Assembly (NCBI GenBank): GCA_900471815.1
Contig: UICE01000004.1
Span: 310,001 to 374,000 of the forward strand
Direction: 5' to 3'
DNA from: Hyphomicrobiales bacterium
GTDB lineage: Bacteria > Pseudomonadota > Alphaproteobacteria > Rhizobiales > Rhizobiaceae
DNA: 64,000 nt
This document shows, one piece after another, positions 19,646 to 53,576 of this stretch. The notes below the pieces were generated by a model. It made no database searches. It had not been told where the DNA came from and was given only the letters and a program-made list of their open reading frames with translations. A program made the translations under genes and the position numbers. Positions within the stretch are counted from its first letter, which is position 1. Every line of letters starts with the position of its first letter.

Positions 19646-20341
19646 TCAAACAGCAGGTTTTTCCCGAGACAGGAGCTTGTCAGCGAGCGCGGCTGCGACA
19701 CCGCCAAGGATCGGAGCGACACAATATAGCCAGAGCTGGGCCAGAGCTTCGCCACCCCCGAGCAGTGCAGGCCCGAAGCTTCGTGCCGGGTTCATCGACG
19801 CGCCGCTCACTTTCATGAAGGTGATGAGCAAAACGGTCGCTGTCAGACCGACCGCTGCGCCTCCAAGCGGCGTGCCGGTGCGTTCAGAAGTCACGGCTAG
19901 CACGACAAGAGACAGAACGAACGTTGCAAACATCTCCGCGACGAATGCGGCGGTCACAGAGTAGCTCACGCCCCATGCAGTCTGCGCCAGAGAAAGCGGT
20001 GTGAGGTCAACTCCTCCAGACCTGCCAGAGAGAATCCCTAGTATAATGGCTGCCCCGGCCAGGCCGCCGAGAAACTGTGCCACCAAATAGTATGGGACAT
20101 CTCTTGCGGGGAACCTTCCCGCCGTCCAGAGGCAAATGGTAATCGCCGGGTTAATATGGCACCCGGAAACTGGACTCAGTGCATATACTAGGGCCGCAAC
20201 AGCGAAGCCGGATGCGATTGCGATTGTCAGAATTGCGATACCTTGGGAAGATCCATAGTCTGGAATGATGATGACGCCGCATATTATAGCGACCAGTATC
20301 GCAGTACCGACTAACTCAGCGGCAAATTCCTGATGTTTCAT
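19646..20341 (-). CDS. Aquaporin / MIP-family channel with unusual selectivity filter
   Basis: 231-residue six-helix channel. Both half-helix motifs are intact: SGCHINPAI in the first half and SMNPARSFGP in the second. Aligning by eye with E. coli AqpZ, the filter positions Phe43, His174 and Thr183 become Ser, Leu and Ala, with the Arg kept. This would be wider and less polar than in a water channel and different from GlpF, suggesting passage of a small neutral solute such as urea. The ATG at 20341 follows GAGGAACAAGAA; upstream in-frame codons overlap the 80-codon gene. Last gene of the operon holding the ABC importer, ureohydrolase and gamma-lyase. Confidence 0.85.
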   Translation of the reverse strand: MKHQEFAAELVGTAILVAIICGVIIIPDYGSSQGIAILTIAIASGFAVAALVYALSPVSGCHINPAITICLWTAGRFPARDVPYYLVAQFLGGLAGAAIILGILSGRSGGVDLTPLSLAQTAWGVSYSVTAAFVAEMFATFVLSLVVLAVTSERTGTPLGGAAVGLTATVLLITFMKVSGASMNPARSFGPALLGGGEALAQLWLYCVAPILGGVAAALADKLLSREKPAV

Positions 20342-20468
20342 TTCTTGTTCCTCCCCGCAGGGCGCATCGCAGGCTCCAGAACGATCATAGCTTCCGGCCC
20401 GCAATACCTGACAGTCTGGCCGCTCAAACTTTTGAACGGCACTTCCCACCCCGGCTGCAAAAGCACGG

Positions 20469-20711
20469 TCAGATGGCGTAGAAAATACCGGCAGCAAATG
20501 CGAGGGATACAGCGAAACCGAATATAAGCCACGAACGTACCCCTCCTTCGCTACCAATTGCCGGATCTTGGCGTCCTTGAACGGCCCGTTCAGCAACGAC
20601 ATAGCCAATCCCACGCTCCAACATAGGCTCTCCTTTCACTGTTTCAGCACCGACCAACTTGGCCATTCGGTAATCGAGATAATTCAGATGCATGGTCGGA
20701 TGTCGAATCAT
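20469..20711 (-). CDS. Small membrane-anchored protein of unknown function
   Basis: 80 codons between the gamma-lyase stop (31 bases upstream) and the aquaporin. AGGAGAGG lies 5 bases before the ATG, a strong ribosome site. The N-terminal 55 residues are soluble and charged (MAKLVGAETVKGEPMLERG region). The last 20 residues, WLIFGFAVSLAFAAGIFYAI, are a clean transmembrane helix ending at the stop codon, as in tail-anchored proteins. No family recognised. Position suggests a partner of the lyase or the channel. Confidence 0.65.
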   Translation of the reverse strand: MIRHPTMHLNYLDYRMAKLVGAETVKGEPMLERGIGYVVAERAVQGRQDPAIGSEGGVRSWLIFGFAVSLAFAAGIFYAI

Positions 20712-20741
20712 TATCCTCTCCTGAAGACGAGCCTCGGCTGT

Positions 20742-21956
20742 TCAACATTCCTGACCGCAGGTTTCGTTGAGAGCATTTCTGATGTCAGCAATGAGGTCAT
20801 CGGGATCTTCGAGGCCGATCGAGAGTCGCAGATGGCCATACTTCTGGAAGTTCAGCGGGTAGCGCTCTGCACCACCGCGGCCGCTGCCGCCGACATGTAC
20901 AATCAGAGTTTCATCATGACCGAGTGAGACAGCCGATGTGACAACTTTCAGGTTTGCAACAAAACGGTTTTGCGTGTCGGGATCGCCTTCGACAGCGAAG
21001 GCCATGACGGCTCCATAACCTTTGCCGCCAAACTGAGCTTTCGCCAGCGCATGCTGGTCATGGCTTTCGAGGCCGGGATAGGTGACATAGGCAACACGCT
21101 TGTCAGTTGCGAGATATTCCGCGATCAGCTGCGCGGTTGAGAACTGCTGCTTCAGGCGCAGGGGAAGGGTGACCGAGCCGCGCATGATCAGCCAGGCGTT
21201 GAAGGGAGAGATCGTCCCGCCGAGGTCAACAAGGGCATCGGCCTTGACGTGGTGGACAAGATCCTTGGAGCCGATTACCACGCCACCCATGGCATCACCA
21301 TGGCCATTGATGTATTTCGTCAGTGAATGGATGACGAGGTCTGCCCCGAGCGTGAGTGGACGGAAGAATGGAGGAGGGGTGAAGGTTGAATCGACCGTCA
21401 GGAGCGCGCCTGCCTGCTTTGCGATCAAGGAAAGTCCAGCAATGTCGGCGACCTTTGTGGTCGGATTGGCAATGGTCTCGGTGTGAATGAGCTTGGTGTT
21501 TGGACGCACGGCGGCTTTGACGGCATCCATATCGCCCATGTCGACGAAGGTGGCTTCGATGTTGTAGCGCTCGGGCAGCAGCTCAGCAAAGAGGCGCCAG
21601 ACAGCCTCATAGGTGACGTCGCCAACGATCACATGGTCGCCGGACTTGAGGAAAGTGAAGAACACAGCATGCAGGGCGGCAACACCGGTCGCAAACACCG
21701 CGCTGTCTTCACCGCCCTCCATGGCAGACAGCTTACGCTGAAGGCAAATCTGGTTGTGACCCGAATTGCGGGTATAGGAGGAGTTCGAAGTATCAGACCA
21801 ATCCTTCAACGAAGGGTCGAATGGTAGGGCGTACGAATTCGCCATGACGATCGGGGTGCGGATAGCCCCCGACGTTTTGTCGATCTCGTTGCCGCCATGC
21901 ACCGAAAGCGTGTTGAAGGACAGCGTTGATAGTTCGTGTTTGTCAGGTCTCGACAT
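20742..21956 (-). CDS. PLP-dependent gamma-lyase, candidate canavanine gamma-lyase (copy 1)
   Basis: Cys/Met-metabolism PLP enzyme (fold type I), 404 residues. Lys214 in VIHSLTKYINGHGDAMGG is the PLP lysine, Asp189 lies in TVDSTF, and Tyr61/Arg63 in SYTRNSGHNQ sit where the family has YxRxxNPT. The GHN replacement of NPT departs from ordinary cystathionine and methionine lyases. The start at 21956 matches the start of the second copy (47711-48925), to which it is about 94% identical. Context (basic-amino-acid importer, ureohydrolase, and elsewhere homoserine breakdown and a CtdA-like gene) points to elimination of hydroxyguanidine from canavanine, giving homoserine. Alternatives are other O- or S-substituted homoserines. 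Confidence 0.7.
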   Translation of the reverse strand: MSRPDKHELSTLSFNTLSVHGGNEIDKTSGAIRTPIVMANSYALPFDPSLKDWSDTSNSSYTRNSGHNQICLQRKLSAMEGGEDSAVFATGVAALHAVFFTFLKSGDHVIVGDVTYEAVWRLFAELLPERYNIEATFVDMGDMDAVKAAVRPNTKLIHTETIANPTTKVADIAGLSLIAKQAGALLTVDSTFTPPPFFRPLTLGADLVIHSLTKYINGHGDAMGGVVIGSKDLVHHVKADALVDLGGTISPFNAWLIMRGSVTLPLRLKQQFSTAQLIAEYLATDKRVAYVTYPGLESHDQHALAKAQFGGKGYGAVMAFAVEGDPDTQNRFVANLKVVTSAVSLGHDETLIVHVGGSGRGGAERYPLNFQKYGHLRLSIGLEDPDDLIADIRNALNETCGQEC

Positions 21957-22019: not shown

Positions 22020-22982
22020 TCATTGTGCCTGACGTGCGAGGACACCGAGCGAGGTGGTAATCAGGCGGGCGACAGTAAGTGCGCCGATGTCATCAACGTC
22101 CCGTTCAGGCATGAATTCAACGAAATCCATGGCCGCAATTTTACCCTTCGACGCAGCACCTTTGATCAGGTCAACCATTTGATAATAGCTGAGCCCGCCG
22201 GGCGAGCGGCCGATGACGCCGGGGACAACCGATGGATCGAGCGCATCAGCGTCGATGCAGATGACGATGTTGCTCGCCTCCGGGATGAGATCGATGACAG
22301 CAGCGACACCATGGTTGTGGAGATCATGGGCGGGGACGAATTTTACACCCCAAGCAATGGCATCTTCGTAGTCGGATGTGGCCGCCGAACCAATGCCTCT
22401 CGCGCCCACCTGGATAATGCGCTCGATGTGCGGCATTTCCGATGCCCGGCGCATGGTGGATGAAAGGCCATAGCGTTCTCCCATGTGGACGTCGCGCCAG
22501 TCGATGTGAGCGTCAATCTGAAGAACCGTGTATTTGCGGCTTTCGTCAGCCTTGCCCAGTGCATCAAGCATGGGGATTGGAACGGAGTCGTCCCCACCCA
22601 GAAGAACCGGGATTGCACCTCTCGCGAGAATTTTCTCGATCGCCTTTGCGATTTCATCCCTATTTGCAGCGGAATCGTTTTCATCGTATGGCAGGTCGCC
22701 GCAATCTACCGGGCGTGCCTGCCCAACTGGGAAAACGGGGCCGCCATGGTCAAAATCGTGACGATCGACGTTCGCCGTCAGGGAACTGGTTGCGCGCCGG
22801 AGTGCATCCGGGCCATTCCGGCAATAGGCTCCGACGGAGGCATAAGGCGTTGCACAAGGCGCGCCAATCAACGCGATAGGGGCGATAAGCTCATCAAGAT
22901 TGGAACAGGTTTCCAGTCCAAGAAAGGTCTTTGTGTCCGAAGTAGCCCCGTAAAGGGCTCCGAGATCTGGTTTGGTGTTCAT
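22020..22982 (-). CDS. Ureohydrolase family protein (agmatinase/arginase fold) with altered metal ligand
   Basis: 320-residue manganese (or nickel) hydrolase that splits a guanidino group to urea. Motifs: GGDDS at 129-133, DAHID at 157-161, and CIDADALDPS (Asp244, Asp246). The first motif is normally GGDHS, so a metal-ligand His is replaced by Asp132, which could change metal or substrate. AGGGAG lies 7 bases before the chosen ATG; 31 upstream in-frame codons overlap the permease gene. Between ABC permease and gamma-lyase genes. Possible substrates are hydroxyguanidine, guanidine, canavanine or agmatine-type compounds; context favours a product of the lyase or canavanine itself. Confidence 0.8.
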   Translation of the reverse strand: MNTKPDLGALYGATSDTKTFLGLETCSNLDELIAPIALIGAPCATPYASVGAYCRNGPDALRRATSSLTANVDRHDFDHGGPVFPVGQARPVDCGDLPYDENDSAANRDEIAKAIEKILARGAIPVLLGGDDSVPIPMLDALGKADESRKYTVLQIDAHIDWRDVHMGERYGLSSTMRRASEMPHIERIIQVGARGIGSAATSDYEDAIAWGVKFVPAHDLHNHGVAAVIDLIPEASNIVICIDADALDPSVVPGVIGRSPGGLSYYQMVDLIKGAASKGKIAAMDFVEFMPERDVDDIGALTVARLITTSLGVLARQAQ

Positions 22983-23043
22983 GGGTAAGTCTCCCTGAGT
23001 GTGAATGGTATGGACCTTGGTCATGATTGGGCTGGTTTTATCG

Positions 23044-23736
23044 CTAACCGGTGCGAGTATTGAGGTATCCGGCAAAGCGGTGCTGTATGATTTGGAAGGT
23101 TGAGACGATGACGAATGTGATCGTCAGATAAATACCTGCTGCTGTGACATAAGGCTCGAACTGGATGTAATTATCGAGGGTTATTCTGCGAGCAACGCCG
23201 GTCGTTTCCAGCAATGTTACGGTGCTGGCAAGGGAAGTGGCATGCAGCATCATGATCATTTCGTTGCCGTAAAGCGGTAGTGATCGCGTGAGCATCGCCG
23301 GGATGAAAATGCGGGTACCTAGCTTCCACCGGGACAGGCCAAAGGCGCGGGCGGCTTCGACTTCTCCGATCGGGATATTTCTTAGGGCGCCCGCGAAAAT
23401 CTCCGTCGTATACGCTGTTGTGTTCAGCACGAACGCAATCATGACGCAGACCAGTGGGCTTGAAAGCCACGGCCATAGAAAACTAGCACGGATGCCGCCA
23501 AATTGTGCAAGGCCAAAATAGATGAGAAAGAGTTGGACTAAAAGCGGCGTACCGCGGAACAACAGCGTGTAAGCCGACACAGCGTAACGAACAGCGTTGA
23601 CCCTGCTGTTGCGGAGGAATGCAAGTGGTATCGCAATCACACAGGATATGGCCAGCGAGCCGAATGCGAGAATCAAAGTGAGTTTGGCACCCTGCACATA
23701 TTGGGGGGCGTTCTCTGCAATTACGTCCCAGTTCAT
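23044..23736 (-). CDS. Amino-acid ABC transporter permease (HisM/ArtM type)
   Basis: 230-residue inner-membrane permease of the polar amino acid transporter family. Five hydrophobic segments, starting LTLILAFGSLAISCVIAIPLAFL. The EAA loop EVEAARAFGLSRWKLGTRIFIP (about 128-149) contacts the ATPase. It overlaps the preceding permease gene by 4 bases (ATGA) and is followed after 61 bases by the ureohydrolase gene. Forms a heterodimer with the next permease upstream. Confidence 0.9.
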   Translation of the reverse strand: MNWDVIAENAPQYVQGAKLTLILAFGSLAISCVIAIPLAFLRNSRVNAVRYAVSAYTLLFRGTPLLVQLFLIYFGLAQFGGIRASFLWPWLSSPLVCVMIAFVLNTTAYTTEIFAGALRNIPIGEVEAARAFGLSRWKLGTRIFIPAMLTRSLPLYGNEMIMMLHATSLASTVTLLETTGVARRITLDNYIQFEPYVTAAGIYLTITFVIVSTFQIIQHRFAGYLNTRTG

Positions 23737-24431
23737 GACGCTATTTCCCGGATGCCGGCTGCGGTCCGTCGTGCAACAATAGACAAAAGGACGATCGAGA
23801 ATAATGTGACCGAAAAATAAAAACCCGCGGCGACGAGGTAGAACGTGAACGGCATGCTTGTCGCCTCGGCCGCTCCTTTCGCATGAAACATCACGTCATG
23901 CAGCCCAATCAATGAAGTTAGCGCTGTTGCCTTGGCGAGAACCAGCCAATTGTTCGTAAAACCGGGAAGGGCCAGACGGGCGAGCTGCGGCAGAATGATC
24001 GCGACAAAAATCCGAAATCTCGTCAGTCCATAGGCTACAGCGGCTTCGATCTGCCCCTTTGGAATATTCAATAGCGCCGTCCTGAAAGTTTCTGTCATGT
24101 AAGCGCCGAAGATTAGTCCGAGCGTCGCGATGCCGGCGGCAATGGGTGAAAAATCAACATGGACGTTCCATCCCAGTGCCTCCACGCCTTGGTTCAAGAC
24201 TGCGGGGAGGCTGTAGAAAATAAGAAGCATAACGACCAGATCAGGAATGCCGCGAACAACGAAGGTGTACACGCCCGCAAGCCCACGCCAGAACCTGTTC
24301 CCAGAAACTTTGGCGAATGCGCCCGCGAGTCCGATCGCCGTCGCCAATATCAGCGACGTCACGGCCAGCAGCAGGGTCATCGACCCTGCTGCCAGAATGC
24401 TCAATACAAAGTCGCCGACCATTCCGCTCAC
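23733..24431 (-). CDS. Amino-acid ABC transporter permease (HisQ/ArtQ type)
   Basis: 232-residue permease with five membrane segments and the EAA loop QIEAAVAYGLTRFRIFVAIILP. The start is GTG at 24431 overlapping the binding-protein stop (GTGA); an ATG three codons downstream is an alternative. Gene order ATPase, binding protein, permease, permease is the standard HisJQMP-type set for basic amino acids. Confidence 0.9.
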   Translation of the reverse strand: MSGMVGDFVLSILAAGSMTLLLAVTSLILATAIGLAGAFAKVSGNRFWRGLAGVYTFVVRGIPDLVVMLLIFYSLPAVLNQGVEALGWNVHVDFSPIAAGIATLGLIFGAYMTETFRTALLNIPKGQIEAAVAYGLTRFRIFVAIILPQLARLALPGFTNNWLVLAKATALTSLIGLHDVMFHAKGAAEATSMPFTFYLVAAGFYFSVTLFSIVLLSIVARRTAAGIREIAS

Positions 24432-25195
24432 TTACCGAAATACTTGGACATGAGAGCCTTAAGAGTGCCGTCTTCACGCACTTTGGCCAAGCCTCTGTTG
24501 ATGTCTTCAAGAAGTTTGGTGTTTTTCTTGTTGATCGCGATGGCGACGCCCTCGCCGAACTCCTTGGCATCTTTTCCGGTCATTTCCGGTCCGGTCAGCT
24601 CGAAATTCTTGCCCTCTTCTTTTTTCAGGAAGCTCTCAACGATCTGGGCTTGGTATCCGAGCACCAGGTCAGCACGGCCATTAGCAAGATCAAGAAACGG
24701 CGCGCTGCCAGAATCGTAGCGCTTGATAGTCGCTTTGGGCATATGCGCCGTAACATAGGCATCCATCGGTGTTCCGGTCTGGACGGCAATGATCTTGCCG
24801 GCGACGCCATCGGGTGTAATTTCTAAGTTTGCATTCTTCTTTGCAGCGAACCGAAAGATTGGATGGTCGTAGATGTCGCTGAAGGCGAACGTTTTGCGGC
24901 GTTTCTCAGTCACCGTAAGCTGTGAAATGAGAGCATCATATTTGCCTTCGACGAGACTCGGGAACATTCCCTCCCAGGCAGCAGCGATGATATTGCAGTC
25001 CAGCTCGGCTGCTTTACAGATAGCCTCCATCAGTTCGATATCGAAGCCAACGAGCTTTCCATTTGCATCGATGGATTCAAAAGGCGGGAAAGTTGCATCG
25101 GTCGCAACATCGACCGTCTCCGCTGCCGCGTAGCCAGCTGACAAAAAGGTCGATGCCAAGGCGATGGCGCATGCAGTTTGAAAGAATGTTCTCAT
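24428..25195 (-). CDS. Periplasmic amino-acid-binding protein (lysine/arginine/ornithine type)
   Basis: 255-residue binding protein with a signal peptide cleaved near YAAA|ET (about residue 25). The solute-binding family 3 pattern is clear: ATFPPFESIDANGKLVGFDI, LMEAICKAAE, FPSLVEGKYDAL, ANGRADLVLG. LVGFDIELM plus the acidic pocket are typical of basic-amino-acid binders. GAGAGGAACGAGA precedes the ATG at 25195. In front of a ureohydrolase and a gamma-lyase the ligand is probably a guanidino amino acid such as canavanine or arginine. Confidence 0.9.
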   Translation of the reverse strand: MRTFFQTACAIALASTFLSAGYAAAETVDVATDATFPPFESIDANGKLVGFDIELMEAICKAAELDCNIIAAAWEGMFPSLVEGKYDALISQLTVTEKRRKTFAFSDIYDHPIFRFAAKKNANLEITPDGVAGKIIAVQTGTPMDAYVTAHMPKATIKRYDSGSAPFLDLANGRADLVLGYQAQIVESFLKKEEGKNFELTGPEMTGKDAKEFGEGVAIAINKKNTKLLEDINRGLAKVREDGTLKALMSKYFGK

Positions 25196-25266
25196 TCTCG
25201 TTCCTCTCAAGTTGATTCTGTTTTTCTTTATTGGGCAGTGTGCTGACCGCTTCCCTCAGGAAGTGT

Positions 25267-26037
25267 TCAGTGTTTGAGGCGTCCGGCCAGAAATTGTTGA
25301 AGGCGCGGGCTGGACGCCGAATTGAAAACCGTATCTGGATCGTCTTCCTCTTCGACCCGTCCTTGATGCAGAAACATGACACGGCTGGAGGCATGGCGGG
25401 CAAAACCCATTTCATGGGTGACGACCACCATGGTACGACCTTCTTCTGCCAGAGACTGCATGACGCGTAAGACTTCTCCCACCAGTTCGGGATCAAGCGC
25501 GGACGTGGGTTCATCGAATAGCATCACATCAGGGTCGACGCTCAGAGCTCTCGCGATCGCAACACGCTGCTGTTGTCCACCGGAAAGATGGGCGGGGTAT
25601 TTTTCGAGGACTTCGTACCCGAGGCCCACCTTTGAAAGATTGGCTTTCGCTCTGTCGCAAGCCTCCTTTCGCGAAAGTCCGAGGACGCTGATCGGCGCCT
25701 CAATCACGTTGCTCAGGACGGACATATGTGACCACAGGCAGAAATTCTGAAACACCATGGCAAGTTTGGCCCGGACGTGCCGCAACTGGTCTCGATTGGT
25801 TGCCCTTAAAAGACCGTCGCGATCCATTTTCGTCTCAAGCGTGACGTCATCAACGGTAATCTGGCCGGAGTTTGGCCGTTCGAGAAAGTTGATACAACGA
25901 AGAAACGTGCTCTTACCTGAACCGCTGGCACCGATGATGCTGATGACGTCGCCTGCGACAGCACTGAGTGAAACGCCCTTTAATACTTCAATAGCCCCGT
26001 ACGACTTATGAACGTCTTTGACAGCAAGCTTTATCAC
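25267..26037 (-). CDS. Amino-acid ABC transporter ATPase (HisP/GlnQ type)
   Basis: 256-residue ATP-hydrolysing subunit. Walker [10 protein letters not shown] at 36-44, Q-loop in VFQNFCLW, signature [16 protein letters not shown], Walker [13 protein letters not shown] and the switch His in [10 protein letters not shown]. First gene of the importer-ureohydrolase-lyase-aquaporin operon; 219 bases of promoter region with a tandem repeat lie upstream. Confidence 0.92.
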
Positions 26038-26256: not shown

Positions 26257-27183
26257 TTACGTTGTCAGCAGATTTTCAAGGGAGGAACGTCGGCCGAAAC
26301 ATGTAAGAAGCCAGCGTAGGAACAGCCTTGCCGCCGACCTCTTCAAGCTTCGATCGAAGGATATGACGTGCCATCCGCCAAATATATCAATGGCAAGCGG
26401 GAATGCTTTGACGAGAGTATTGCGCTTCAGATCGTGCGCTGCGAGGGTATCGCTTACCAGGGCAACGCCCGCACCGTGGACGGCAAGGTCGATTGCAATA
26501 CCGAGGTCATTGCAATAGAGATGGCGGGCCTGCCGGTCGGCCTCCGGCAAACCGGCGTCCGAAAACCACCGTCGCCATTCTGCGCCATCATCCCAATGCA
26601 AAAGTAGCGTTTTACAAAGATCGAGTGGTATCGCCGCTTGCCCCCCAATTCTCTGTAACAGCTGTGGTGTACAGACGGGTGCAACACTAACCTGCGCCAG
26701 CAATGCCGACCAGCGATCGGGCCACCCTCCATTGCCGAATGCTATCCCAATGTCGATATCTTTCGTCTCATGCACACGGTGGTTGTCCACGAGCCTGATG
26801 TGACATTCGATACTTGGGTGGTCTTGGCAGAATTGGCCAAGGTTCTTTGCAAGCCACGTGTTGGCAAACATCGGTGGACAGGCGATTTCAAGTTTGCCCC
26901 CGCCATCTTCCAGATCCGCCAGTCTGAGTGCGGTATTGGAAATATCGTGCAATGCACCACCAACAGTCCTCGCTAGGATCCTGCCCGCTTCACTCAGCAC
27001 CAATCCTCTGCCAGACTTCACAAATAGGACGTATCCCAATGCGTCTTCGAGCCGTCTGATCTGGTGGCTGACCGCGCTGTCTGTCAAATTCAATTCTTCC
27101 GCAGCCTTCGTAAGGCTTTCATGGCGTGCCGCAGCCTCAAACGTCCGCAGGGTTGGAAGGGGCAGATTTCGAAGATTTTTCAT
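26257..27183 (-). CDS. LysR-family regulator, GcvA-like
   Basis: 308 residues. HTH at about residues 8-60 (PLPTLRTFEAAARHESLTKAAEELNLTDSAVSHQIRRLE) has the GcvA-type variant with FEAAARH and SAVSHQI. The effector domain contains FANTWLAKNL and DIDIGIAFGNGGWP. It lies directly upstream of, and on the same strand as, the lyase/importer operon, whose promoter region follows it. It probably activates that operon in response to its amino-acid substrate. Lrp lies 114 bases upstream. Confidence 0.85.
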   Translation of the reverse strand: MKNLRNLPLPTLRTFEAAARHESLTKAAEELNLTDSAVSHQIRRLEDALGYVLFVKSGRGLVLSEAGRILARTVGGALHDISNTALRLADLEDGGGKLEIACPPMFANTWLAKNLGQFCQDHPSIECHIRLVDNHRVHETKDIDIGIAFGNGGWPDRWSALLAQVSVAPVCTPQLLQRIGGQAAIPLDLCKTLLLHWDDGAEWRRWFSDAGLPEADRQARHLYCNDLGIAIDLAVHGAGVALVSDTLAAHDLKRNTLVKAFPLAIDIFGGWHVISFDRSLKRSAARLFLRWLLTCFGRRSSLENLLTT

Positions 27184-28549: not shown

Positions 28550-28560
28550 ATCCCATTTCC

Positions 28561-43004: not shown

Positions 43005-43060
43005 TGTCCTGTCCCGAAATAGGGAGCCCTGGCTGTAAGCTAGACCAGGGCTCGATAAGT

Positions 43061-46388: not shown

Positions 46389-46421
46389 CGTTGCCCCGTT
46401 TTGTCTAATAGAGATAAATTA

Positions 46422-46480: not shown

Positions 46481-46493
46481 GGAGAGCCTCAGT

Positions 46494-46970
46494 ATGGAGC
46501 AAAAGCTGACAGTTGCCATCGACGAGTTTGATCGCAAAATCCTGAGGATTGTCCAAGTGGACAATCAAACCCCGCAGCGAATTATTGGCGATCAGGTTGG
46601 ATTGTCATCACCGGCGGTCGCGCGTCGGCTCCAGCATCTAAGGAAAGTTGGAGTCATTCGCCGAGATATATCTGTCGTAGACGAGAACGGGGTTGGTCGG
46701 CCCTTGACTATCATAGTGCACGTAACAACAGAGAATGAGAGGCTGGATCTGCTGGATGGAATGAAGGATCGCTTCCTTAACTGCCCGCAGGTGCAGCAAT
46801 GCTACTATGTCACTGGGGAGATGGACTTCATACTTATTTTGAACGTGAAGGACATGGCGGAGTACAACGACATCACGCGTACGCTGTTCTTCGAAGGAGG
46901 CAATGTTAAGAGCTTTCGAACATGTGTATCAATGCAAAATGTGAAGGCAAATGGGATCGTGCCGATTTGA
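46494..46970 (+). CDS. Lrp/AsnC-family transcriptional regulator
   Basis: 158 residues. HTH in DEFDRKILRIVQVDNQTPQRIIGDQVGLSSPAVARRLQHLRKVGVI, then the RAM effector domain with CYYVTGEMDFILILNVKDM. AAGGAGAG lies 9 bases before the ATG; an in-frame ATG 43 codons upstream would overlap dpaL and is unlikely. Divergent from the diaminopropionate operon, so it is its probable regulator, with an amino acid as effector. Confidence 0.85.
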   Translation: MEQKLTVAIDEFDRKILRIVQVDNQTPQRIIGDQVGLSSPAVARRLQHLRKVGVIRRDISVVDENGVGRPLTIIVHVTTENERLDLLDGMKDRFLNCPQVQQCYYVTGEMDFILILNVKDMAEYNDITRTLFFEGGNVKSFRTCVSMQNVKANGIVPI

Positions 46971-47288: not shown

Positions 47289-47606
47289 TCAGGAACTGGA
47301 CAGCTTCATCATTAGTATTCCGACCACAATCAGACCACCAGCCAGCAAACGCATCGGTGATGCAGGTTCTCCAAGGATTGCTACTCCCAGAACAAACGAG
47401 CCGACTGCACCGATACCCGTCCAGACGGTATACGCGGTACCGAGCGGCAAAACCCTCATGGAAAAAGATAGCAGCACACCGCTGGCAATCATTGCAACGA
47501 CGGTAATTGTGGAGGGAATTAGCAACGTGAATCCTTCGGACCTTTTCATATAAAATGCCCAAACGACTTCGAGCAGACCAGCAATGAAAAGAATTGTCCA
47601 ATACAT
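47289..47606 (-). CDS. Small multidrug resistance protein, guanidinium exporter (Gdx/SugE) type
   Basis: 105-residue, four-helix dual-topology exporter. Begins [21 protein letters not shown] with the essential Glu13, then [37 protein letters not shown] and [21 protein letters not shown]. This pattern matches SugE/Gdx, shown to export guanidinium by proton antiport, rather than EmrE. The ATG at 47606 follows AGGAAATTGCT. It lies 104 bases after the second gamma-lyase in the same operon. Export of guanidine or hydroxyguanidine released from canavanine is the obvious inferred job. Confidence 0.85.
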
Positions 47607-47710: not shown

Positions 47711-48925
47711 TTACTTGGAATGGCCGAGTGTAACATCGAGAGCATTTCTGATGTCAGCAATGAGGTCATCGGGATCTTCGAGACCGATCGAGAGTCGCAG
47801 ATGGCCATACTTCTGGAAGTTCAGCGGGTAGCGCTCTGCACCACCGCGGCCGCTGCCGCCGACATGTACAATCAGAGTTTCATCATGACCGAGTGAGACG
47901 GCCGATGTAATAACTCTCAGGTTTGCAACAAAACGGTTTTGCGTGTCCGGATCACCATCGACGGCAAACGCCATCACGCCACCGTATCCCGTGCCGCCAA
48001 ACTGGGCCTTCGCCAGCGCATGCTGGTCATGGCTTTCGAGGCCGGGATAGGTGATATAGGCGACACGCTTGTCAGTTGCGAGATATTCCGCGATCACCTG
48101 CGCGGTTGAGAATTGCTGCTTCAGGCGCAGGGGAAGGGTGACCGAGCCGCGCATGATCAGCCAGGCGTTGAAGGGAGAGATCGTCCCGCCGAGGTCAACA
48201 AGGGCGTCGGCCTTGACGTGGTGGACAAGATCCTTGGAGCCAATCACCACGCCACCCATGGCATCACCATGGCCATTGATGTATTTCGTTAGTGAATGGA
48301 TGACGAGGTCCGCCCCGAGCGTGAGTGGCCGGAAGAATGGGGGAGGGGTGAAGGTTGAATCGACCGTCAGGAGCGCGCCTGCCTGCTTTGCGATCAAGGA
48401 AAGTCCAGCAATATCGGCAACCTTTGTGGTCGGGTTGGCGATGGTCTCGGTGTGGATGAGCTTGGTGTTCGGACGCACGGCGGCTTTGACGGCATCCATA
48501 TCGCCCATGTCGACGAAGGTGGCTTCGATGTTGTAGCGCTCGGGCAGCAGCTCAGCAAAGAGGCGCCAGACAGCCTCATAGGTGACGTCGCCAACGATCA
48601 CATGGTCGCCGGACTTGAGAAAAGTGAAGAACACAGCATGAAGAGCGGCGACGCCGGTGGCAAATACGGCTGCATCCTCACCACCCTCCATCGCGGCAAG
48701 CTTACGCTGCAGGCAAATCTGGTTGTGACCAGAATTGCGGGTATAGGAGGGGGCTTCGGTGTCTGACCAGTCCATCGTGGAAGGGTCATAGGGAAGGAGA
48801 TAGGAATTCGCCATGACGATCGGGGTGCGAATGGCCCCCGACGTTTTGTCGATTTCGTTGCCGCCATGTACTGACAGCGTGTTGAATGAGAGCGTCGAGA
48901 GTTCGTGTTTATCTGGTTTGGACAT
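47711..48925 (-). CDS. PLP-dependent gamma-lyase, candidate canavanine gamma-lyase (copy 2)
   Basis: 404 residues, about 94% identical to the 20742-21956 product; I count 23 differences, all in residues 1-85 and from about 297 on, with roughly 210 central residues identical. Same PLP Lys214 and the same unusual SYTRNSGHNQ loop. The matching DNA stops at the gene ends, so only the gene is repeated. Here the lyase lies between an ABC importer and a Gdx exporter in an operon headed by a CtdA-like tRNA-editing gene, the strongest context evidence that canavanine is the substrate. Confidence 0.75.
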   Translation of the reverse strand: MSKPDKHELSTLSFNTLSVHGGNEIDKTSGAIRTPIVMANSYLLPYDPSTMDWSDTEAPSYTRNSGHNQICLQRKLAAMEGGEDAAVFATGVAALHAVFFTFLKSGDHVIVGDVTYEAVWRLFAELLPERYNIEATFVDMGDMDAVKAAVRPNTKLIHTETIANPTTKVADIAGLSLIAKQAGALLTVDSTFTPPPFFRPLTLGADLVIHSLTKYINGHGDAMGGVVIGSKDLVHHVKADALVDLGGTISPFNAWLIMRGSVTLPLRLKQQFSTAQVIAEYLATDKRVAYITYPGLESHDQHALAKAQFGGTGYGGVMAFAVDGDPDTQNRFVANLRVITSAVSLGHDETLIVHVGGSGRGGAERYPLNFQKYGHLRLSIGLEDPDDLIADIRNALDVTLGHSK

Positions 48926-48962: not shown

Positions 48963-49652
48963 TTACCGGCGAACCGGCACGGCGTTTTCGAGTTTTTGAA
49001 AGACCTGGGTAATCACGAAGGTCAGGGTGACATAGAACACGGTGACGAGGAGGAGGGGTTCGTAAACTAGGAGCGTATCCTGGCGGATCTTGTAAGCCGC
49101 GCCGTAGAGATCCATGACTGTCACGGAGAAAACGATCGGTGTAGCCTTGAGCTGCAGGACGACTTCGCCGGCAAAGGTCGGCAGCCCAATACGGATCGCT
49201 CTGGGCAGCCAGATGCGACGCAGGATCATTCCAGGGGACATGCCGACTGCGCGCGCTGCTTCAAGTTCTCCTTTCGGCACTGCCAGCATAGCACCCCGCA
49301 AAATTTCCCCTTGGTAGGCGGCGAAGTTCAATGTGAGAGCCAGCGTGGCGAAGAATAACCCCTCGCGCAGGACAGGCCAGAGAAAACTTGCCCTCAAGCC
49401 TGGGATGTAAGGCAGATAGGAGCCCAGGCCGTAGTAGATGAGCCAGAGCTGGATGAGCAATGGCGTGCCGCGGAAGAAGGTGCAATATCCCTTTGATATC
49501 CAACGAGCGATGGGGTTATCACCCACTTGAGCAATCGCCAGAAAGATGGCGAGTCCAAATCCCAAGGGAACCGATATTGCCAGCAGCAAAAAGGTGAGGA
49601 AGACGCCGTGTAGCAGCAAATTCTGGTATTCTGGAATCCAAGTGAAATCCAT
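48963..49652 (-). CDS. Amino-acid ABC transporter permease (HisM type)
   Basis: 229 residues with five membrane segments (LLLHGVFLTFLLLAISVPLGFGLAIFLAI at the start) and the EAA loop ELEAARAVGMSPGMILRRIWLP. Lies 37 bases upstream of the second gamma-lyase gene. Pairs with the 49663-50385 permease. Confidence 0.9.
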   Translation of the reverse strand: MDFTWIPEYQNLLLHGVFLTFLLLAISVPLGFGLAIFLAIAQVGDNPIARWISKGYCTFFRGTPLLIQLWLIYYGLGSYLPYIPGLRASFLWPVLREGLFFATLALTLNFAAYQGEILRGAMLAVPKGELEAARAVGMSPGMILRRIWLPRAIRIGLPTFAGEVVLQLKATPIVFSVTVMDLYGAAYKIRQDTLLVYEPLLLVTVFYVTLTFVITQVFQKLENAVPVRR

Positions 49653-49662
49653 GTCCGCCTCC

Positions 49663-50385
49663 CTAAGCTACCGGTCTTTGCCCGCGGCGAAAATATCCTT
49701 CGAGCGCGGAGAACAGCATGTTTGAAACAATCGTGATGACCAGATAAAGCGCGGCGGCAGCCAGGAAGAAGACCATATATTGTTTGGTATTGCTTGCAGC
49801 CACCCGTGCCGCGAGAGCCAGTTCCTGGTAACCGACCACGGCGATCAGCGCGCTGTCCTTGATCACCGACATCCAAAGGTTTGCGAAACCCGGCAGCGCA
49901 TTGGGGATGAGTGCCGGCAGGACGATCCTGCGGAAGCGCAATCCCGGCCGCATTCCGAATGCCTTGGCGGCTTCGACTTGCCCGACCGGAATTGCAAGGA
50001 TCGCCCCCCGCAAAACTTCAGTCATATAGGCACCCTGGACGAAGCCCAGAACCGCGATTGCCGCGACCAGCCCATTGACCTCGATTGGACCAAAGTCTGC
50101 CAATGCAAGAATACGGTTCAAGCCATCAGTTCCCGCATAGTAGAGCGAAACGATGAGAATGAGTTCCGGCACGGCACGAACGATCGTCGTGTAAAGATTC
50201 AAAGCGTATTGAAGAGGCCGGATACCGCTCAACTTGCCAAGCGCGCCGAACAGGCCGAGCGTCATGCCGAACAGATAAGCGCCAAACGAGATGAACAGGG
50301 TCGCGAACGCTCCGGTGATCAGTACACCGCCCCAGCCGGGAGGTGTGATCGACAGCATGTCCAGAACAGATGTTGAGGGACTCAT
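49663..50385 (-). CDS. Amino-acid ABC transporter permease (HisQ type)
   Basis: 240 residues. GWGGVLITGAFATLFISFGAYLFGMTLGLFG opens the membrane domain; EAA loop QVEAAKAFGMRPGLRFRRIVLP. The start at 50385 follows GGAAGGC; in-frame upstream codons reach into the binding-protein gene and are unlikely. The sequence is closest in style to arginine/ornithine/octopine-type permeases, in keeping with a guanidino amino acid substrate. Confidence 0.9.
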   Translation of the reverse strand: MSPSTSVLDMLSITPPGWGGVLITGAFATLFISFGAYLFGMTLGLFGALGKLSGIRPLQYALNLYTTIVRAVPELILIVSLYYAGTDGLNRILALADFGPIEVNGLVAAIAVLGFVQGAYMTEVLRGAILAIPVGQVEAAKAFGMRPGLRFRRIVLPALIPNALPGFANLWMSVIKDSALIAVVGYQELALAARVAASNTKQYMVFFLAAAALYLVITIVSNMLFSALEGYFRRGQRPVA

Positions 50386-50459
50386 TGGAAAGCCTTCCAG
50401 AACAGGACTGGCAGATTTGCCATCAAATACATGACAACAAATCTGCCATGCCCGTGGAC

Positions 50460-51221
50460 TCAATAGGGGTCGTAGTCGAAGTACTTTTTGCTGAACTCGG
50501 CGTAGATGCCGTTGGCCCTGACAGCCTTGATTGCGCCATTCAACTTATCGCGTAGCTCATTGTCGCCCTTGCGGATACCGCCGCCGACGCCAGCGCCAAG
50601 AATGGCATCGTCTGCCTCGACACTACCCTTATATTCGCAGCATTCTTTGCCGAGGTCAGTTTTCAGAAGTTCCTTGAGCGGTCCTGTATCGGCAAAGATA
50701 TAGTCGACGCGCCCAGACGCTAGATCCTGAAAGGACTCATCGACAGTCGCGTAGCTTTTCTCCGTTGCGATGTCGGCGAAGTGCTTCTTGAAATAGGCGG
50801 ACTGGGTCGTCGAAACGGCAATCCCAACCATCTTCCCATTCAATTGCTCGGTTGTCAGGCCCATGACTCCATCCTTGGCACCGATCATGCCGGCGAGAGC
50901 CGAATAATATTTGTCGGTAAAGTCGATGCGCTTCCTGCGCTCGTCGGTGATCGACATGGAAGACCAGATCACGTCGATCTTCTTGCTTTCCAGCGCCGGA
51001 ATCAGCCCGTCCCAGGCGACGTCGACGATCGTGCACTGCTCCTTCAACTCTTTGCAGATCGCATCCATCAGATCGATCTCCCAACCAATTGCTTTCCCAG
51101 TCGCGTCCTTCGTCGTGTAGGGCGCATAAGCCTCGTTAACTACTCCAAAGCGAATTTCCGCCTGAGCGCTCGTCGCCAGCATTGTTGCTGCGACCACCAG
51201 AGCTTTTCCCAAATGCATCAT
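50460..51221 (-). CDS. Periplasmic basic-amino-acid-binding protein
   Basis: 253 residues with a signal peptide ending SAQA|EI (residue 21). Family 3 pattern: VNEAYAPYTTKDATGKAIGWEIDLMDAIC, WDGLIPALESKKIDVIWSSMSITDERRKRIDFTDKYY. The GWEIDLM and SSMSITDERR segments are typical of LAO/arginine binders. A pair of adjacent Cys (ECCEY) lies near residue 195. GGGGATCTACA precedes the ATG at 51221. Candidate canavanine receptor. Confidence 0.9.
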   Translation of the reverse strand: MMHLGKALVVAATMLATSAQAEIRFGVVNEAYAPYTTKDATGKAIGWEIDLMDAICKELKEQCTIVDVAWDGLIPALESKKIDVIWSSMSITDERRKRIDFTDKYYSALAGMIGAKDGVMGLTTEQLNGKMVGIAVSTTQSAYFKKHFADIATEKSYATVDESFQDLASGRVDYIFADTGPLKELLKTDLGKECCEYKGSVEADDAILGAGVGGGIRKGDNELRDKLNGAIKAVRANGIYAEFSKKYFDYDPY

Positions 51222-51255
51222 TGTAGATCCCCTTTTTTGTTGGGCGTTAGTGGTT

Positions 51256-52038
51256 TTAGTGCGAACCGGCTGCAACAAACTCCTTGCAGCGTGCGCTAGT
51301 GGGTGCACCAAAGACCTGGGCCGGAGAACCGGCTTCCTCGACTTGACCTTCGTGCAAAAACATGACGCGGGTGGAAACGTCGCGTGCAAACTTCATCTCG
51401 TGGGTAACCATCACCATGGTGCGGCCTTCCTCGGCCAGTCCACGGATTACCTTAAGCACTTCGCCAACCAATTCCGGATCGAGCGCCGAGGTCGGCTCGT
51501 CGAACAGCATTACTGCCGGATCGACGCAGAGAGCACGGGCAATCGAAGCGCGCTGTTGTTGGCCGCCGGAAAGAAAAGCGGGGTAGGTGTCCTTCTTGTC
51601 GTAGAGACCAACCTTGGCCAGCAGCGCCTCCGCCTTTTCGATCGCGACTTTGCGCTCGATATGGAGGACATGGATCGGGGCCTCGATGACGTTCTGGAGA
51701 ATGGTCATGTGCGGCCAGAGATTAAAGCTTTGGAAGACCATGCCGAGACCACTTCTCAGCCTCTCTATCTGCCGCCAGTTGGCGGGATGGCATTTGCCGT
51801 CTCGGCCCTTGCGGAAAATCACGTCTTCGCCGTTAATTTGGAAGCTCCCTTGGTCGGGAATTTCGAGGAAATTGATGCAGCGCAGGAATGTGCTTTTTCC
51901 CGAACCCGACGATCCGATAATTGAGACCACGTCGCCCTTCTCAGCTGAAAGAGAAATCCCCTTCAGCACCTTGTGTGCGCCGTAGCTCTTGTGGACGTCG
52001 CTCACCATCAAAGCTGACTTGACTGTTTCGATGTGCAT
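51256..52038 (-). CDS. Amino-acid ABC transporter ATPase (HisP/OccP type)
   Basis: 260 residues. Walker [21 protein letters not shown], signature [15 protein letters not shown], Walker [23 protein letters not shown]. The signature has ALA-to-SER variation (QRASIAR). GGAGGG lies 5 bases before the ATG at 52038. First transporter gene after the CtdA-like gene, from which it is separated by 184 bases containing two hairpins. Confidence 0.92.
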   Translation of the reverse strand: MHIETVKSALMVSDVHKSYGAHKVLKGISLSAEKGDVVSIIGSSGSGKSTFLRCINFLEIPDQGSFQINGEDVIFRKGRDGKCHPANWRQIERLRSGLGMVFQSFNLWPHMTILQNVIEAPIHVLHIERKVAIEKAEALLAKVGLYDKKDTYPAFLSGGQQQRASIARALCVDPAVMLFDEPTSALDPELVGEVLKVIRGLAEEGRTMVMVTHEMKFARDVSTRVMFLHEGQVEEAGSPAQVFGAPTSARCKEFVAAGSH

Positions 52039-52062
52039 TTTCCCTCCATTGCTTTGCGATAG

Positions 52063-52084
52063 TTTGCCCACTCCTCTGGGCAAA
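52063..52084 (-). promoter_or_regulatory. Hairpin just upstream of the ABC ATPase ribosome site
   Basis: TTTGCCC and GGGCAAA form a perfect 7-pair stem with an 8-base loop that carries AGAGGAGU on the RNA strand. Flanking GCGAT/ATCGC can extend the structure. It ends 24 bases before the ATG. Confidence 0.45.
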
Positions 52085-52212: not shown

Positions 52213-52232
52213 CGTCGGCGCGCTAGCCGACG
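52213..52232 (-). terminator. Hairpin overlapping the ctdA-like stop codon
   Basis: CGTCGGC and GCCGACG form a perfect 7-pair stem with a GCGCTA loop that contains the stop codon of the CtdA-like gene. No T run; could reduce read-through into the importer genes or protect the message end. Confidence 0.4.
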
Positions 52233-52909
52233 ATGATCTTGTGCCTGTAGACCTCACACCCTGGTGCCAGCTGTCTTAAGCCGTTAATCAGCATGTTGGC
52301 CGCCTCCTCAAGCGCCTCCTCAGGCATTGTTCCCAAGCTCTCCAATATGAACCACATCCGGCCGCCCAAGGTCTCAAGTCGGGTCCGATTGCCCTGGCGC
52401 CAATTCCAGCGGCGGCATGTGACGCCTGCGTCATCGCGCCAGATGACTTCACCTTTGGACGGATTTTCGACGGTGACCTCGCCATTCATCACGGTGTCAA
52501 ACGCTTCCATTCCATCGGCAATGGACAGCCGTGGATTGCCGATATAGGCATCGAAGTTTTCTCCACCCACCGGTACCGCGAAACGCAGGCTCACCGCATT
52601 GTAAAGGTCGACGACCGGATTGATTGATGGGAGATAACCATCCTTCTCTACCCGCTTCTTCAGCGCTTGTGCGGAACACGGCGTACGGCTTGGTTTTGCT
52701 CCGAACCGGCTGTATGCCTCGCCCCAACTCACGAGATGGGCTTCACTCCAGGCTGGACCTCCAGCTCGGACAAAGTCACATGCTTCTTCCAGTACGTTAC
52801 GAGCCATGGTACCGCGCGCTTTATCCGTAACGTCAACGAAGACGCTGATCGCCCGAAAGTCTGGAGCGATGCTTGCGATTTCTTTGTCGATAACTGGAAA
52901 ATTCCACAT
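52223..52909 (-). CDS. ctdA: B3/4-domain tRNA-editing protein, candidate canavanyl-tRNA(Arg) deacylase
   Basis: 228-residue stand-alone B3/4 protein, the domain that edits mischarged tRNA in phenylalanyl-tRNA synthetase. Core motifs span about 68-190: RFGAKPSRTPCSAQALKKRV, LPSINPVVDLYNAVSL (93-108), VPVGGENFDAY, then the GEVIWRDDAGVTCRRWNWRQ strand. CtdA, a stand-alone deacylase for canavanine mischarged on tRNA(Arg), belongs to this family. Here the gene heads the importer, gamma-lyase and guanidinium-exporter operon, which strongly favours CtdA over other B3/4 proteins. GGGAGCTAGAGGGC precedes the ATG. It is divergent from an XRE-cupin regulator with only 43 bases between starts. Confidence 0.75.
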   Translation of the reverse strand: MWNFPVIDKEIASIAPDFRAISVFVDVTDKARGTMARNVLEEACDFVRAGGPAWSEAHLVSWGEAYSRFGAKPSRTPCSAQALKKRVEKDGYLPSINPVVDLYNAVSLRFAVPVGGENFDAYIGNPRLSIADGMEAFDTVMNGEVTVENPSKGEVIWRDDAGVTCRRWNWRQGNRTRLETLGGRMWFILESLGTMPEEALEEAANMLINGLRQLAPGCEVYRHKIIVG

Positions 52910-52936
52910 GCCCTCTAGCTCCCATTGACCAATTTA

Positions 52937-52951
52937 GTCTATAATATCGAC
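52937..52951. promoter_or_regulatory. Near-palindromic operator between ctdA-like gene and xre-cupin gene
   Basis: GTCTATA-A-TATCGAC is a 15-base dyad with one mismatch covering TATAAT (52940-52945). ATATCGACC recurs 27 bases downstream at 52971-52979 inside the regulator gene. Probable binding site of the XRE-cupin protein controlling both genes. Confidence 0.5.
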
Positions 52952-52952
52952 C

Positions 52953-53576
52953 ATGGAAAAGAAAGTCAATATATCGACCGAAGCGGTCGCTGATGTCGAA
53001 CGCGTAAGTGCAACCGTGTCCCAGAACCTCAAATTGTTCAGGAAGCAGAACGGTTTGACCCTCGACGAACTGTCCCGAAAGTCAGGCGTCAGTAAAGGCA
53101 TGCTAGTCGAAATTGAAAAGGGAAGCGCTAACCCAAGCATCGCGACACTCTGCAGGGCCGCGACCGCATTGGGAGTTTCAGTCGCGGATTTTGTCGGCGT
53201 CGCGGTCAGCGTGCCAGTTCGCATCGTTCCCCCTGAGGACGCCTCTGTCCTTTGGCGAGGTCCGAAGGGCGGAAGTGCGACGCTACTGGTTGGTACTCAC
53301 GGGCCGGATGAAATCGAGCTTTGGCGCTGGACATTGTTCCCCGATGAAATCTTTGAATCGCCCGGACATTCGCCAGGAACCCTCGAACTGTTGAATGTGG
53401 AAGTCGGCGTGCTTACCCTAAAACTGGCCGAGAGCGAGCACGTCGTTTCAGCAGGATCATCGGTGTTAGCGCGGACGGAAGAGAAGCATGCCTATATGAA
53501 TTGCGGGAAAGAAGAACTTCGGTTCGTGATGACTGTCGCGGAACTGCAGCGACCACGGGTGAGAACGGGCGTGTAA
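52953..53576 (+). CDS. XRE-family regulator with cupin sensor domain
   Basis: 207 residues. HTH at about 26-80 (LKLFRKQNGLTLDELSRKSGVSKGMLVEIEKGSANPSIATLCRAATALGVSVADFV). The cupin barrel is in the C-terminal half, about 120-195, ending with ELRFVMTVAELQ. No ribosome site precedes the ATG, and TATAAT ends 7 bases before it, so the transcript may be leaderless. Divergent from the CtdA-led operon, so it most likely senses canavanine or a product and controls that operon and itself. Confidence 0.85.
   Translation: MEKKVNISTEAVADVERVSATVSQNLKLFRKQNGLTLDELSRKSGVSKGMLVEIEKGSANPSIATLCRAATALGVSVADFVGVAVSVPVRIVPPEDASVLWRGPKGGSATLLVGTHGPDEIELWRWTLFPDEIFESPGHSPGTLELLNVEVGVLTLKLAESEHVVSAGSSVLARTEEKHAYMNCGKEELRFVMTVAELQRPRVRTGV

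Follow-up and report, generated by a model that had tools for sequence, protein, structure and literature searches.

Pfam and NCBIfam scans of the window, as we call the whole 64,000-nucleotide stretch analyzed here, detected every gene that the initial annotation had named. At the right-hand end, an HTH_3 and Cupin_2 regulator (52953–53576, plus strand) diverges from a stand-alone B3/4-domain gene (52223–52909, minus strand; PF03483). Its product, proposed earlier to be an editing protein, strongly matches the solved structure 9f7e, "CtdA Canavanyl tRNA Deacylase" (292.9 bits, E = 1.8e-86), and we refer to it as CtdA, the canavanyl-tRNA(Arg) deacylase. Behind ctdA on the minus strand follow ABC importer 2 (48963–52083; ATPase 51256–52083, binding protein 50460–51389, permeases 49663–50463 and 48963–49652), a putative canavanine γ-lyase, lyase 2 (47711–48925; PF01053), and a small multidrug resistance (SMR) exporter (47289–47606; PF00893). 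For the latter, which had been called a Gdx-type guanidinium exporter, the nearest model is indeed SugE (NF008512, 122.7 bits; next SMR model, 64.8), although it falls ∼3 bits short of the curated cut-off of 126. Unlike the known Gdx/SugE exporters, it is not accompanied by a riboswitch: no guanidine riboswitch lies upstream of ctdA, and no Rfam family reaches its gathering score within the window.

The homoserine operon, also on the minus strand, contains all four enzymes claimed for it: homoserine dehydrogenase (32334–33395; NF004912, 479.9 bits, cut-off 373), an aldehyde dehydrogenase (30919–32337; PF00171) that we infer to be an aspartate-semialdehyde oxidizer, DapA (29989–30867; TIGR00674, 336.7 bits, cut-off 206), in which the residues that we take to be catalytic are intact, and aspartate ammonia-lyase (28561–29979; NF008909, 650.4 bits, cut-off 510). 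They are followed by a homoserine-kinase (ThrB)-like protein (27764–28564) and an Lrp/AsnC regulator (27298–27741). The kinase-like protein had been read as dead, and it scores 167 bits against a homoserine kinase cut-off of 271. What we take to be the canonical HGD and IDF motifs are HGA and INF in all 18 aligned rows, so that the catalytic Asp is missing throughout the rhizobial relatives.

A second unit on the same strand comprises a LysR regulator (26257–27183; 78%–79% identical in five other CGL1 loci), ABC importer 1 (23044–26037; ATPase, Lys/Arg/Orn-type binding protein, and two permeases), an arginase-family ureohydrolase (22020–23075; PF00491, nearest PDB entry 1wog), and lyase 1 (20742–21956). 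The open reading frame of lyase 1 extends to 21995, but the ATG at 21956 aligns with the start of lyase 2 and is the probable start. A basic-amino-acid importer thus stands beside each lyase, as claimed, with binding proteins nearest to TIGR01096 (lysine/arginine/ornithine) at 216 and 215 bits for importers 1 and 2, both below the 256-bit cut-off. Because the blocks at 33592–40007 and 40219–46970 separate gdx from the homoserine operon, the stretch holds four ABC importers rather than two. Beyond lyase 1 lies an aquaporin-family (MIP) channel with a widened selectivity filter (19646–20341, minus strand; PF00230), its real start being at about 20341. When it is aligned to AqpZ, with filter residues that we presume to be 43, 174, 183, and 189, F43 becomes S, H174 becomes L, T183 becomes A, and R189 is kept. 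M. caraganae (L036) has a 76% identical relative just after its lyase 1; the remaining four CGL1 loci yielded none.

The two lyases are near-identical, as first described (Cys_Met_Meta_PP; 381 of 402 aligned residues), and lyase 2 is 89% identical to the copy in R. leguminosarum Norway. K214, presumably the PLP-lysine, lies in HSLTKYINGHGDAMGG and is invariant across eight sequences. In our tree, 88 lyase-type rows form one clade (support 100/99, stem 2.29) apart from 10 other family members; these are four members from the same genome and six neighbor genes of no established function, some on long branches whose joins may be false, and verified methionine or cystathionine lyases were not part of the tree. 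Both window lyases also miss the cut-offs of the methionine- and cystathionine-lyase models. Clade and synteny together lead us to regard them as probable canavanine γ-lyases.

The core genes, namely the HTH-cupin regulator, CtdA, ABC importer, γ-lyase, Gdx-type exporter, homoserine dehydrogenase, aldehyde dehydrogenase, DapA, aspartase, ThrB-like pseudokinase, and Lrp, recur elsewhere. On R. leguminosarum pRLN3 the same set forms a single unbroken run of 14 genes, and the core is near-complete in A. pusense, CB3060, and S. alkalisoli. Among 80 lyase loci from named genomes, 17 of which are cut to less than 21 kb by contig ends, CtdA is also present in 38 and Gdx in 30. The same-strand order lyase 2, homoserine dehydrogenase, lyase 1 is found again in N. 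alkalisoli and Pararhizobium, with spans of 25–34 kb. The island is located on an extra replicon of a root-nodule-type bacterium; a RepC-type gene (repC) lies on the same contig, ∼16 kb beyond the window.

Canavanine is a poison in legume seeds, and a γ-lyase/CtdA operon was reportedly described by Hauth and colleagues in 2022 in Pseudomonas canavaninivorans and Rhizobium leguminosarum. Like that operon, the window has the lyase, CtdA, and core genes, with CtdA at the head; unlike it, the window has an arginase operon that includes a second lyase, signs of gene conversion between the lyases, the MIP channel, and, separating gdx from homoserine dehydrogenase, an amidinotransferase/M20 module. 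The core corresponds to the known canavanine gene set, and the additions are specific here. The combination had been said to look undescribed, but canavanine lyase/CtdA operons of R. leguminosarum and Pseudomonas are already published, and Hauth et al. (2023, PMC10018355) place CtdA next to canavanine degradation genes in R. leguminosarum, where the core is contiguous.

We consider it quite probable that the stretch is an island for canavanine tolerance and utilization. An importer would take canavanine in, CtdA would clear canavanyl-tRNA(Arg), and the γ-lyase would split canavanine into homoserine and hydroxyguanidine, the latter expelled by the Gdx-type exporter; PMC11018352 cites secretion of hydroxyguanidine by P. 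canavaninivorans. Homoserine would then be converted to aspartate semialdehyde, aspartate, and finally fumarate, with the pseudokinase probably sensing homoserine. This sequence of import, protection, cleavage, carbon recovery, and export had been proposed at the outset, and the conserved R. leguminosarum cluster, the lyase clade, and the CtdA match all argue for it. The same overall reading extends to the second unit, which would be an operon for arginine-type uptake and arginase that has gained a second lyase and has no ornithine-handling partners within reach. Arginase converts canavanine to canaline, according to PMC10018355 and PMC4650597, the former also calling canaline toxic. Lyase 1 would likely destroy co-imported canavanine before arginase makes canaline, and urea or another small product may leave through the channel. 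We infer the enzyme activities, the regulation, and this guard role of lyase 1, the observations themselves being gene content, orthology, synteny, tree positions, motif states, and mosaic divergence. If so, detoxification of a legume seed poison grows by the addition of a second lyase to an arginine-type catabolic operon, which bears on which bacteria can inhabit canavanine-rich rhizospheres; the amidinotransferase, the pseudokinase, the MIP channel, and an outlying gene pair become candidate members, together with a candidate operator.

This operator occupies the 43-bp intergenic region at 52910–52952 and consists of two direct GGTC repeats 22 bp apart. The HTH-cupin protein, whose relatives (76%–94% identical) adjoin ctdA in rhizobial lyase loci, is a candidate regulator of the core operon and probably acts at this site, between its own gene and ctdA. 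GGTC-N18-GGTCA precedes ctdA in 25 of 49 ctdA-bearing loci and in 21 of the 24 rhizobial ones (two records each counted twice). A longer form of the motif has one match in the window (chance mean 0.18) and also matches in 18 of 100 shuffles; the case for the operator therefore rests on conservation.

The initial assignment of the whole 34 kb to canavanine is not supported: the ureohydrolase gives no hint of a novel substrate and is part of an arginine-type module, and the block at 40.2–47.0 kb also occurs away from the core. The first of the two blocks behind gdx carries module a: an importer within 33592–37845 on the minus strand (ATPase 33592–34365, permeases 35669–36325 and 36322–36987, binding protein 37009–37845), an M20 carbamoylase-type hydrolase (34432–35643, minus strand), and, on the plus strand, a LysR regulator (37980–38891; 81%–84% identical in L037 and L038) and an amidinotransferase-family enzyme (38997–40007; 91%–93% identical in L037, L143, and L038). 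The second block (40219–46970) contains a diaminopropionate ammonia-lyase. Both could be chance insertions that split the operon and are unrelated to canavanine, a serious possibility that we nevertheless lean against. In Pararhizobium and Shinella, the second block is complete but separate from the core, and the ammonia-lyase gene there is tens of kilobases from the lyase; this block is probably part of another pathway. As for the first block, five of nine amidinotransferase contexts at ≥60% identity have no core gene detected nearby (L156, L185, L186, L187, and L188; 60%–82%), and an obligatory tie of this enzyme to canavanine genes was accordingly rejected. However, the four copies above 90% identity, the window's included, all sit with canavanine-operon genes. 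In Shinella (L038) and N. alkalisoli (L037), module a and its amidinotransferase take the position they have in the window, between gdx and homoserine dehydrogenase, and in A. pusense (L143) the module occurs together with homoserine dehydrogenase, the ThrB-like gene, and Lrp. Parts of the diaminopropionate block are present in L046 and L085, with the ammonia-lyase gene just past those loci; its recurrence near lyases, with chance estimated roughly rather than computed, was too weak to retain it as a system member.

The arginase-family enzyme had been listed simply as a ureohydrolase, and that much is evident. It scores below the equivalog cut-offs for arginase (60 versus 227.6) and agmatinase (118 versus 174.3), and its motifs read GGDDS, DAHID, and DADALDP, with Asp replacing the His of GGDHS; an arginine substrate is therefore suggested by the neighboring genes. 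Across 39 arginase rows, DAHID and GGDDS are present in all 39 and DxDxxDP in 35. The enzyme might instead be a hydroxyguanidine hydrolase that acts on the lyase product and replaces or assists Gdx, with the channel passing urea, hydroxylamine, or hydroxyguanidine. In keeping with this, the arginase gene lies just upstream of lyase 1 on the same strand in all six CGL1 loci. A. fabrum pAt2 has the arginase and lyase, but its stretch shows no SMR gene either by annotation or by match, and in Microbacterium paraoxydans a lyase is accompanied by a distantly related arginase-family gene and a match to MIP. Ornithine-handling genes were not found in the lyase-linked modules: ornithine cyclodeaminase (OCD) or citrulline hydrolase (CtlX) is near none of the six, with no match in the window, but near 8 of the 11 lyase-free ABC-arginase modules counted (L139–L141, L144–L150, and L160, all with importer 1 binding-protein matches; LysR not detected in L149 and L150), in contexts of 12–64 kb. 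This count leaves out L151–L155, which have more distant arginases (55%–66%), no close LysR1-SBP1 module, and neither gene in any of the five; including them gives 8 of 16. The modules of Martelella, Paracoccus, and Shinella that adjoin OCD and/or CtlX share with the window the order LysR, four-gene importer, arginase, and identical catalytic motifs, differing in that the window has a lyase after the arginase and no OCD or CtlX match. These sister arginases, the coexistence of Gdx with arginase in the window, Shinella, Pararhizobium, and N. alkalisoli, and the lack of a clear residue shift (metal motifs unchanged; of the 202 columns that are conserved in 15 relatives, 8 carry changes in all six lyase-linked rows, four of them plainly conservative) together make a hydroxyguanidine hydrolase unlikely. 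We favor the arginine-type operon with an added lyase. The lyase-linked arginases form one clade (support 100/98), and the addition apparently happened a single time, in a lineage that several rhizobia carry today.

The guanidino-modifying enzyme of the initial annotation is present at 38997–40007, but as a relative of the amidinotransferases AGAT and HsvA. A DDAH or arginine deiminase identity was discarded, as the Pfam ADI match (19 bits) is below the 22.8 cut-off and PDB searches favor amidinotransferases (HsvA best, 1.9e-20, then AGAT, SxtG, and StrB). The Asp, His, and Cys that we take to be catalytic align with those of AGAT and HsvA; in 14 relatives Asp and His are invariant and Cys nearly so. 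In contrast to these solved members, from which it is distant, the enzyme has 336 residues, and what we presume to be the donor-carboxylate residues of AGAT are not kept in the alignment. AmtA, another amidinotransferase, reportedly accepts canavanine as amidine donor (PMC4887976). It is conceivable, and in our view quite improbable, that the enzyme re-amidinates canaline to canavanine, which the lyases would then split, or makes arginine by transferring the amidino group from canavanine or hydroxyguanidine onto ornithine. Canaline would in that case come from arginase acting on canavanine, or from the M20 hydrolase acting on an imported ureido precursor such as O-ureidohomoserine, and the island would handle canavanine plus its toxic breakdown product.

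That the lyases act on another γ-substituted amino acid, their likeness to a canavanine system being coincidental, is highly improbable: their scores stay below the cut-off of every NCBIfam lyase model (best ∼298 bits versus 522), but CtdA, the Gdx-type exporter, Arg-type importers, and homoserine genes lie in one conserved cluster. The wider lyase family may hold other specificities, since 37 of the 88 rows, CGL1 rows aside, come from loci, some of them short, without detected CtdA.

The window's lyase pair diverges in a mosaic pattern, with 0–4 differences per 60 nucleotides in codons 101–300 and up to 22 elsewhere. Three sibling pairs show 276–309 differences spread fairly evenly. At positions 51 and 58, lyase 1 retains residues of the CGL1 type, and the mosaic shows signs of gene conversion between the copies, lyase 1 being partly converted by lyase 2. 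In M. caraganae, lyase 1 clusters with CGL2-type sequences, so that in this species repeated duplication could be the explanation instead of conversion.

Beyond the 19646–53576 region initially delimited, a DHDPS-family enzyme (62291–63205) and a LysE/RhtB-type exporter (63217–63855), both on the minus strand, form an outlying pair of uncertain membership; their relatives occur close to the lyase in 17 and 12 of the 80 loci, respectively.

Family scans of the window bear out the gene list that the initial annotation gave for 19646-53576. A divergent HTH-cupin regulator faces a minus-strand series that begins with ctdA (a B3/4 protein, 52223-52909), ABC importer 2, lyase 2 (47711-48925) and the SMR exporter gene gdx (47289-47606). 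It continues through block b (40219-46970), with Lrp (divergent), diaminopropionate ammonia-lyase, an M24 enzyme, a binding protein, a permease-ATPase fusion and an M20 gene, and block a (33592-40007), with an amidinotransferase and LysR (divergent), a binding protein, two permeases, M20 and an ATPase. Homoserine dehydrogenase, aldehyde dehydrogenase, dapA, aspartase, a ThrB-like gene and Lrp follow, and then a second unit of LysR, ABC importer 1, an arginase-family gene, lyase 1 (20742-21956) and a MIP channel. The search for repC, the one replication gene sought, found a RepC-type gene on the same contig, ∼16 kb past the right edge of the window, so the island is probably on a repABC-type replicon.

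The core, from the HTH-cupin regulator to Lrp, is a published system. Its 14 genes also form an uninterrupted run on R. leguminosarum Norway pRLN3. Close versions of that run occur in A. pusense, Rhizobium CB3060, S. alkalisoli and M. amorphae; they differ by minor insertions, namely a LysR gene and an insertion sequence, or by a loss, that of the exporter in M. amorphae. The abstract of the original lyase paper reportedly describes co-induction of homoserine dehydrogenase, aspartate-semialdehyde dehydrogenase and aspartate ammonia-lyase. All 88 lyase-type rows of a 98-row tree separate from ten other family members (support 100/99), the outgroups having long branches, as the program warned, and including no verified methionine or cystathionine lyase. 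Residues 4-220 of the window's CtdA align with the solved structure 9f7e of CtdA. According to PMC10018355, CtdA deacylates canavanyl-tRNA(Arg), and it precedes the canavanine operon both in P. canavaninivorans and in R. leguminosarum; a passage of PMC11018352 cites hydroxyguanidine secretion by P. canavaninivorans. The main idea of the initial annotation, a real island for canavanine tolerance and utilisation, is right, but the core is not undescribed (PMC10018355); what is new is the architecture and the accessory genes. A literature search found no report of an arginase-linked second lyase, an amidinotransferase module or a hydroxyguanidine hydrolase, which is weak evidence of absence because the search covered titles, abstracts and passages and few subscription journals.

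Strict cut-offs show the lyase to be rare: among the genomes sampled, it is in 2 of 397 from the order and 5 of 294 from the family, this genome being in both counts. The best 80 of 240 relatives, all from named genomes, provided lyase loci (63 full length) in which the partners matching over more than half of the query at an identity of at least 35-60%, depending on the gene, were CtdA (38), Gdx (30), homoserine dehydrogenase (29), aldehyde dehydrogenase (45), DapA (11) and aspartase (11).

The 43-bp gap between regulator and ctdA is nearly identical across several rhizobial genera and contains two direct GGTC repeats at a spacing of 22 bp. GGTC-N18-GGTCA lies upstream of ctdA in 25 of 49 ctdA-bearing loci (21 of the 24 rhizobial, four Pseudomonas/Pantoea) and is absent there from the remaining 21, the 49 including two pairs of duplicate records (L012/L031 and L020/L028) and three loci with little upstream DNA. 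A longer form matches once in the window (chance mean 0.18), and since 18 of 100 shuffles also match, it is conservation, not the single match, that argues for a candidate operator. An Rfam scan of the window found no family, and hence no guanidine riboswitch. Both catalytic Asp residues, as defined by the canonical ThrB motifs, are lost from the ThrB-like protein in all 18 aligned homologs; as a conserved pseudokinase next to Lrp, it may sense homoserine.

The module of the second unit (LysR, ATPase, binding protein, two permeases, arginase-family) also occurs without a lyase. In stretches of 12-64 kb, ornithine cyclodeaminase and/or the citrulline hydrolase CtlX are nearby in 8 of 11 fetched lyase-free modules; neither is found in the six lyase-linked modules (the window, A. 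fabrum, M. caraganae, Pararhizobium, Shinella and N. alkalisoli). Including five more distant arginase loci, in which neither gene was detected, would turn the first count into 8 of 16. In all six, the lyase is downstream of the arginase on the same strand, and their arginases form one clade (100/98; the Shinella copy entered as L172) nested among the remaining arginases. The motifs GGDDS and DAHID are present in all 39 rows. Of the 202 positions that 15 close relatives conserve, eight differ in all six lyase-linked rows, four of them by plainly conservative changes (F/Y, I/V and R/K twice) and two, 120 and 329, by changes that are not conservative. We interpret the second unit as an operon for arginine-type import and arginase action to which a lyase would have been added once, the substrate staying the same. 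Arginase converts canavanine to canaline (PMC10018355, introduction; PMC4650597, in passing), so lyase 1 would act as a guard at the site where canaline would be made. The arginase-family enzyme of the window falls below curated arginase and agmatinase cut-offs. A urease gene elsewhere in this genome means that urea could be used. A seemingly decayed arginase/lyase pair on an S. alkalisoli plasmid (L142, about 8757-10700) may be what is left of such a unit there. Microbacterium paraoxydans (L075, 8929-15668) has in a row CtdA, lyase, DHDPS-family, MFS, LysR, Lrp and a distant arginase-family gene, a possible actinobacterial version.

Between the two lyases of the window there are 102 differences in 1206 nucleotides, and their distribution is very uneven: codons 101-300 have 0-4 per 60 nt, other parts up to 22 per 60. 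Pairs in Pararhizobium, Neorhizobium and Shinella have 276, 300 and 309 differences, fairly evenly spread, and the M. caraganae pair has fewer (148). Lyase 1 carries K and N at positions 51 and 58, as do the five other copies of its arginase-operon type and none of ten copies of the core type; its residue at position 50 is unique. Despite these residues it groups with lyase 2 (100/98). Together, these features point to gene conversion, with lyase 2 as the donor and lyase 1 as the recipient.

The block a enzyme at 38997-40007 belongs among the amidinotransferases (HsvA, AGAT, SxtG, StrB) and retains the Asp, His and Cys that these use in catalysis. It was found in 4 of 297 genomes of the family (E 1e-60) and in 9 of 385 of the class (1e-30), both counts including this one. 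All four copies with >90% identity (those of the window, N. alkalisoli, Shinella and A. pusense) accompany canavanine genes. The module lies immediately between gdx and homoserine dehydrogenase in Shinella and after gdx in N. alkalisoli, where homoserine dehydrogenase is on the same strand ∼11 kb past lyase 2, ahead of lyase 1. For five further copies, at 60-82%, the fetched contexts contain no core gene within reach; one of the five is neighbored by genes of the creatininase, arginase and DUF1989 families. Canavanine can serve as amidine donor for AmtA, which is an amidinotransferase from a different system (a passage of PMC4887976). Block a may have a role in canaline repair, although this is improbable.

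Block b, whose M20 gene encodes a carbamoylase-type hydrolase, has identical gene order in Pararhizobium and Shinella, and its M24-ammonia-lyase-Lrp part recurs in L151, another comparison locus. As a guess, it might break down a diaminopropionate that carries a ureido or amidino group, for example albizziine, an amino acid of legumes.

Beyond the coordinates of the initial annotation, a DHDPS-family enzyme (62291-63205) retains the Tyr and Lys of DapA, and family scans identify a LysE/RhtB-type exporter (63217-63855). Relatives occur in the vicinity of the lyase in 17 and 12 of the 80 loci, respectively, among them Pseudomonas loci with the DHDPS gene close behind ctdA, and both genes may belong to the canavanine system. 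MsiA is a LysE-type protein. It is a canavanine exporter known from Mesorhizobium (a passage of PMC3333776).

The stretch 53630-61146 encodes a sigma-54 regulator, an alpha/beta hydrolase, an MFS transporter, a CobW-type GTPase and nitrile hydratase; in R. leguminosarum (L012), close relatives of most of them adjoin the canavanine operon, as does a nitrile hydratase relative in A. pusense (L143). Since Vicia plants make cyanamide from canavanine (PMC4650597, in passing), the proximity of nitrile hydratase to canavanine genes hints at a connection. At the left end, a DoxX protein and a divergent LysR (18072-19509) have relatives ∼2-3 kb behind lyase 1 in M. caraganae, Pararhizobium, Shinella and N. 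alkalisoli (L036, L039, L040, L041), and both also occur in Pseudomonas (L049, L055); the 80 loci contain DoxX eight times and the divergent LysR seven times, one of them weak.
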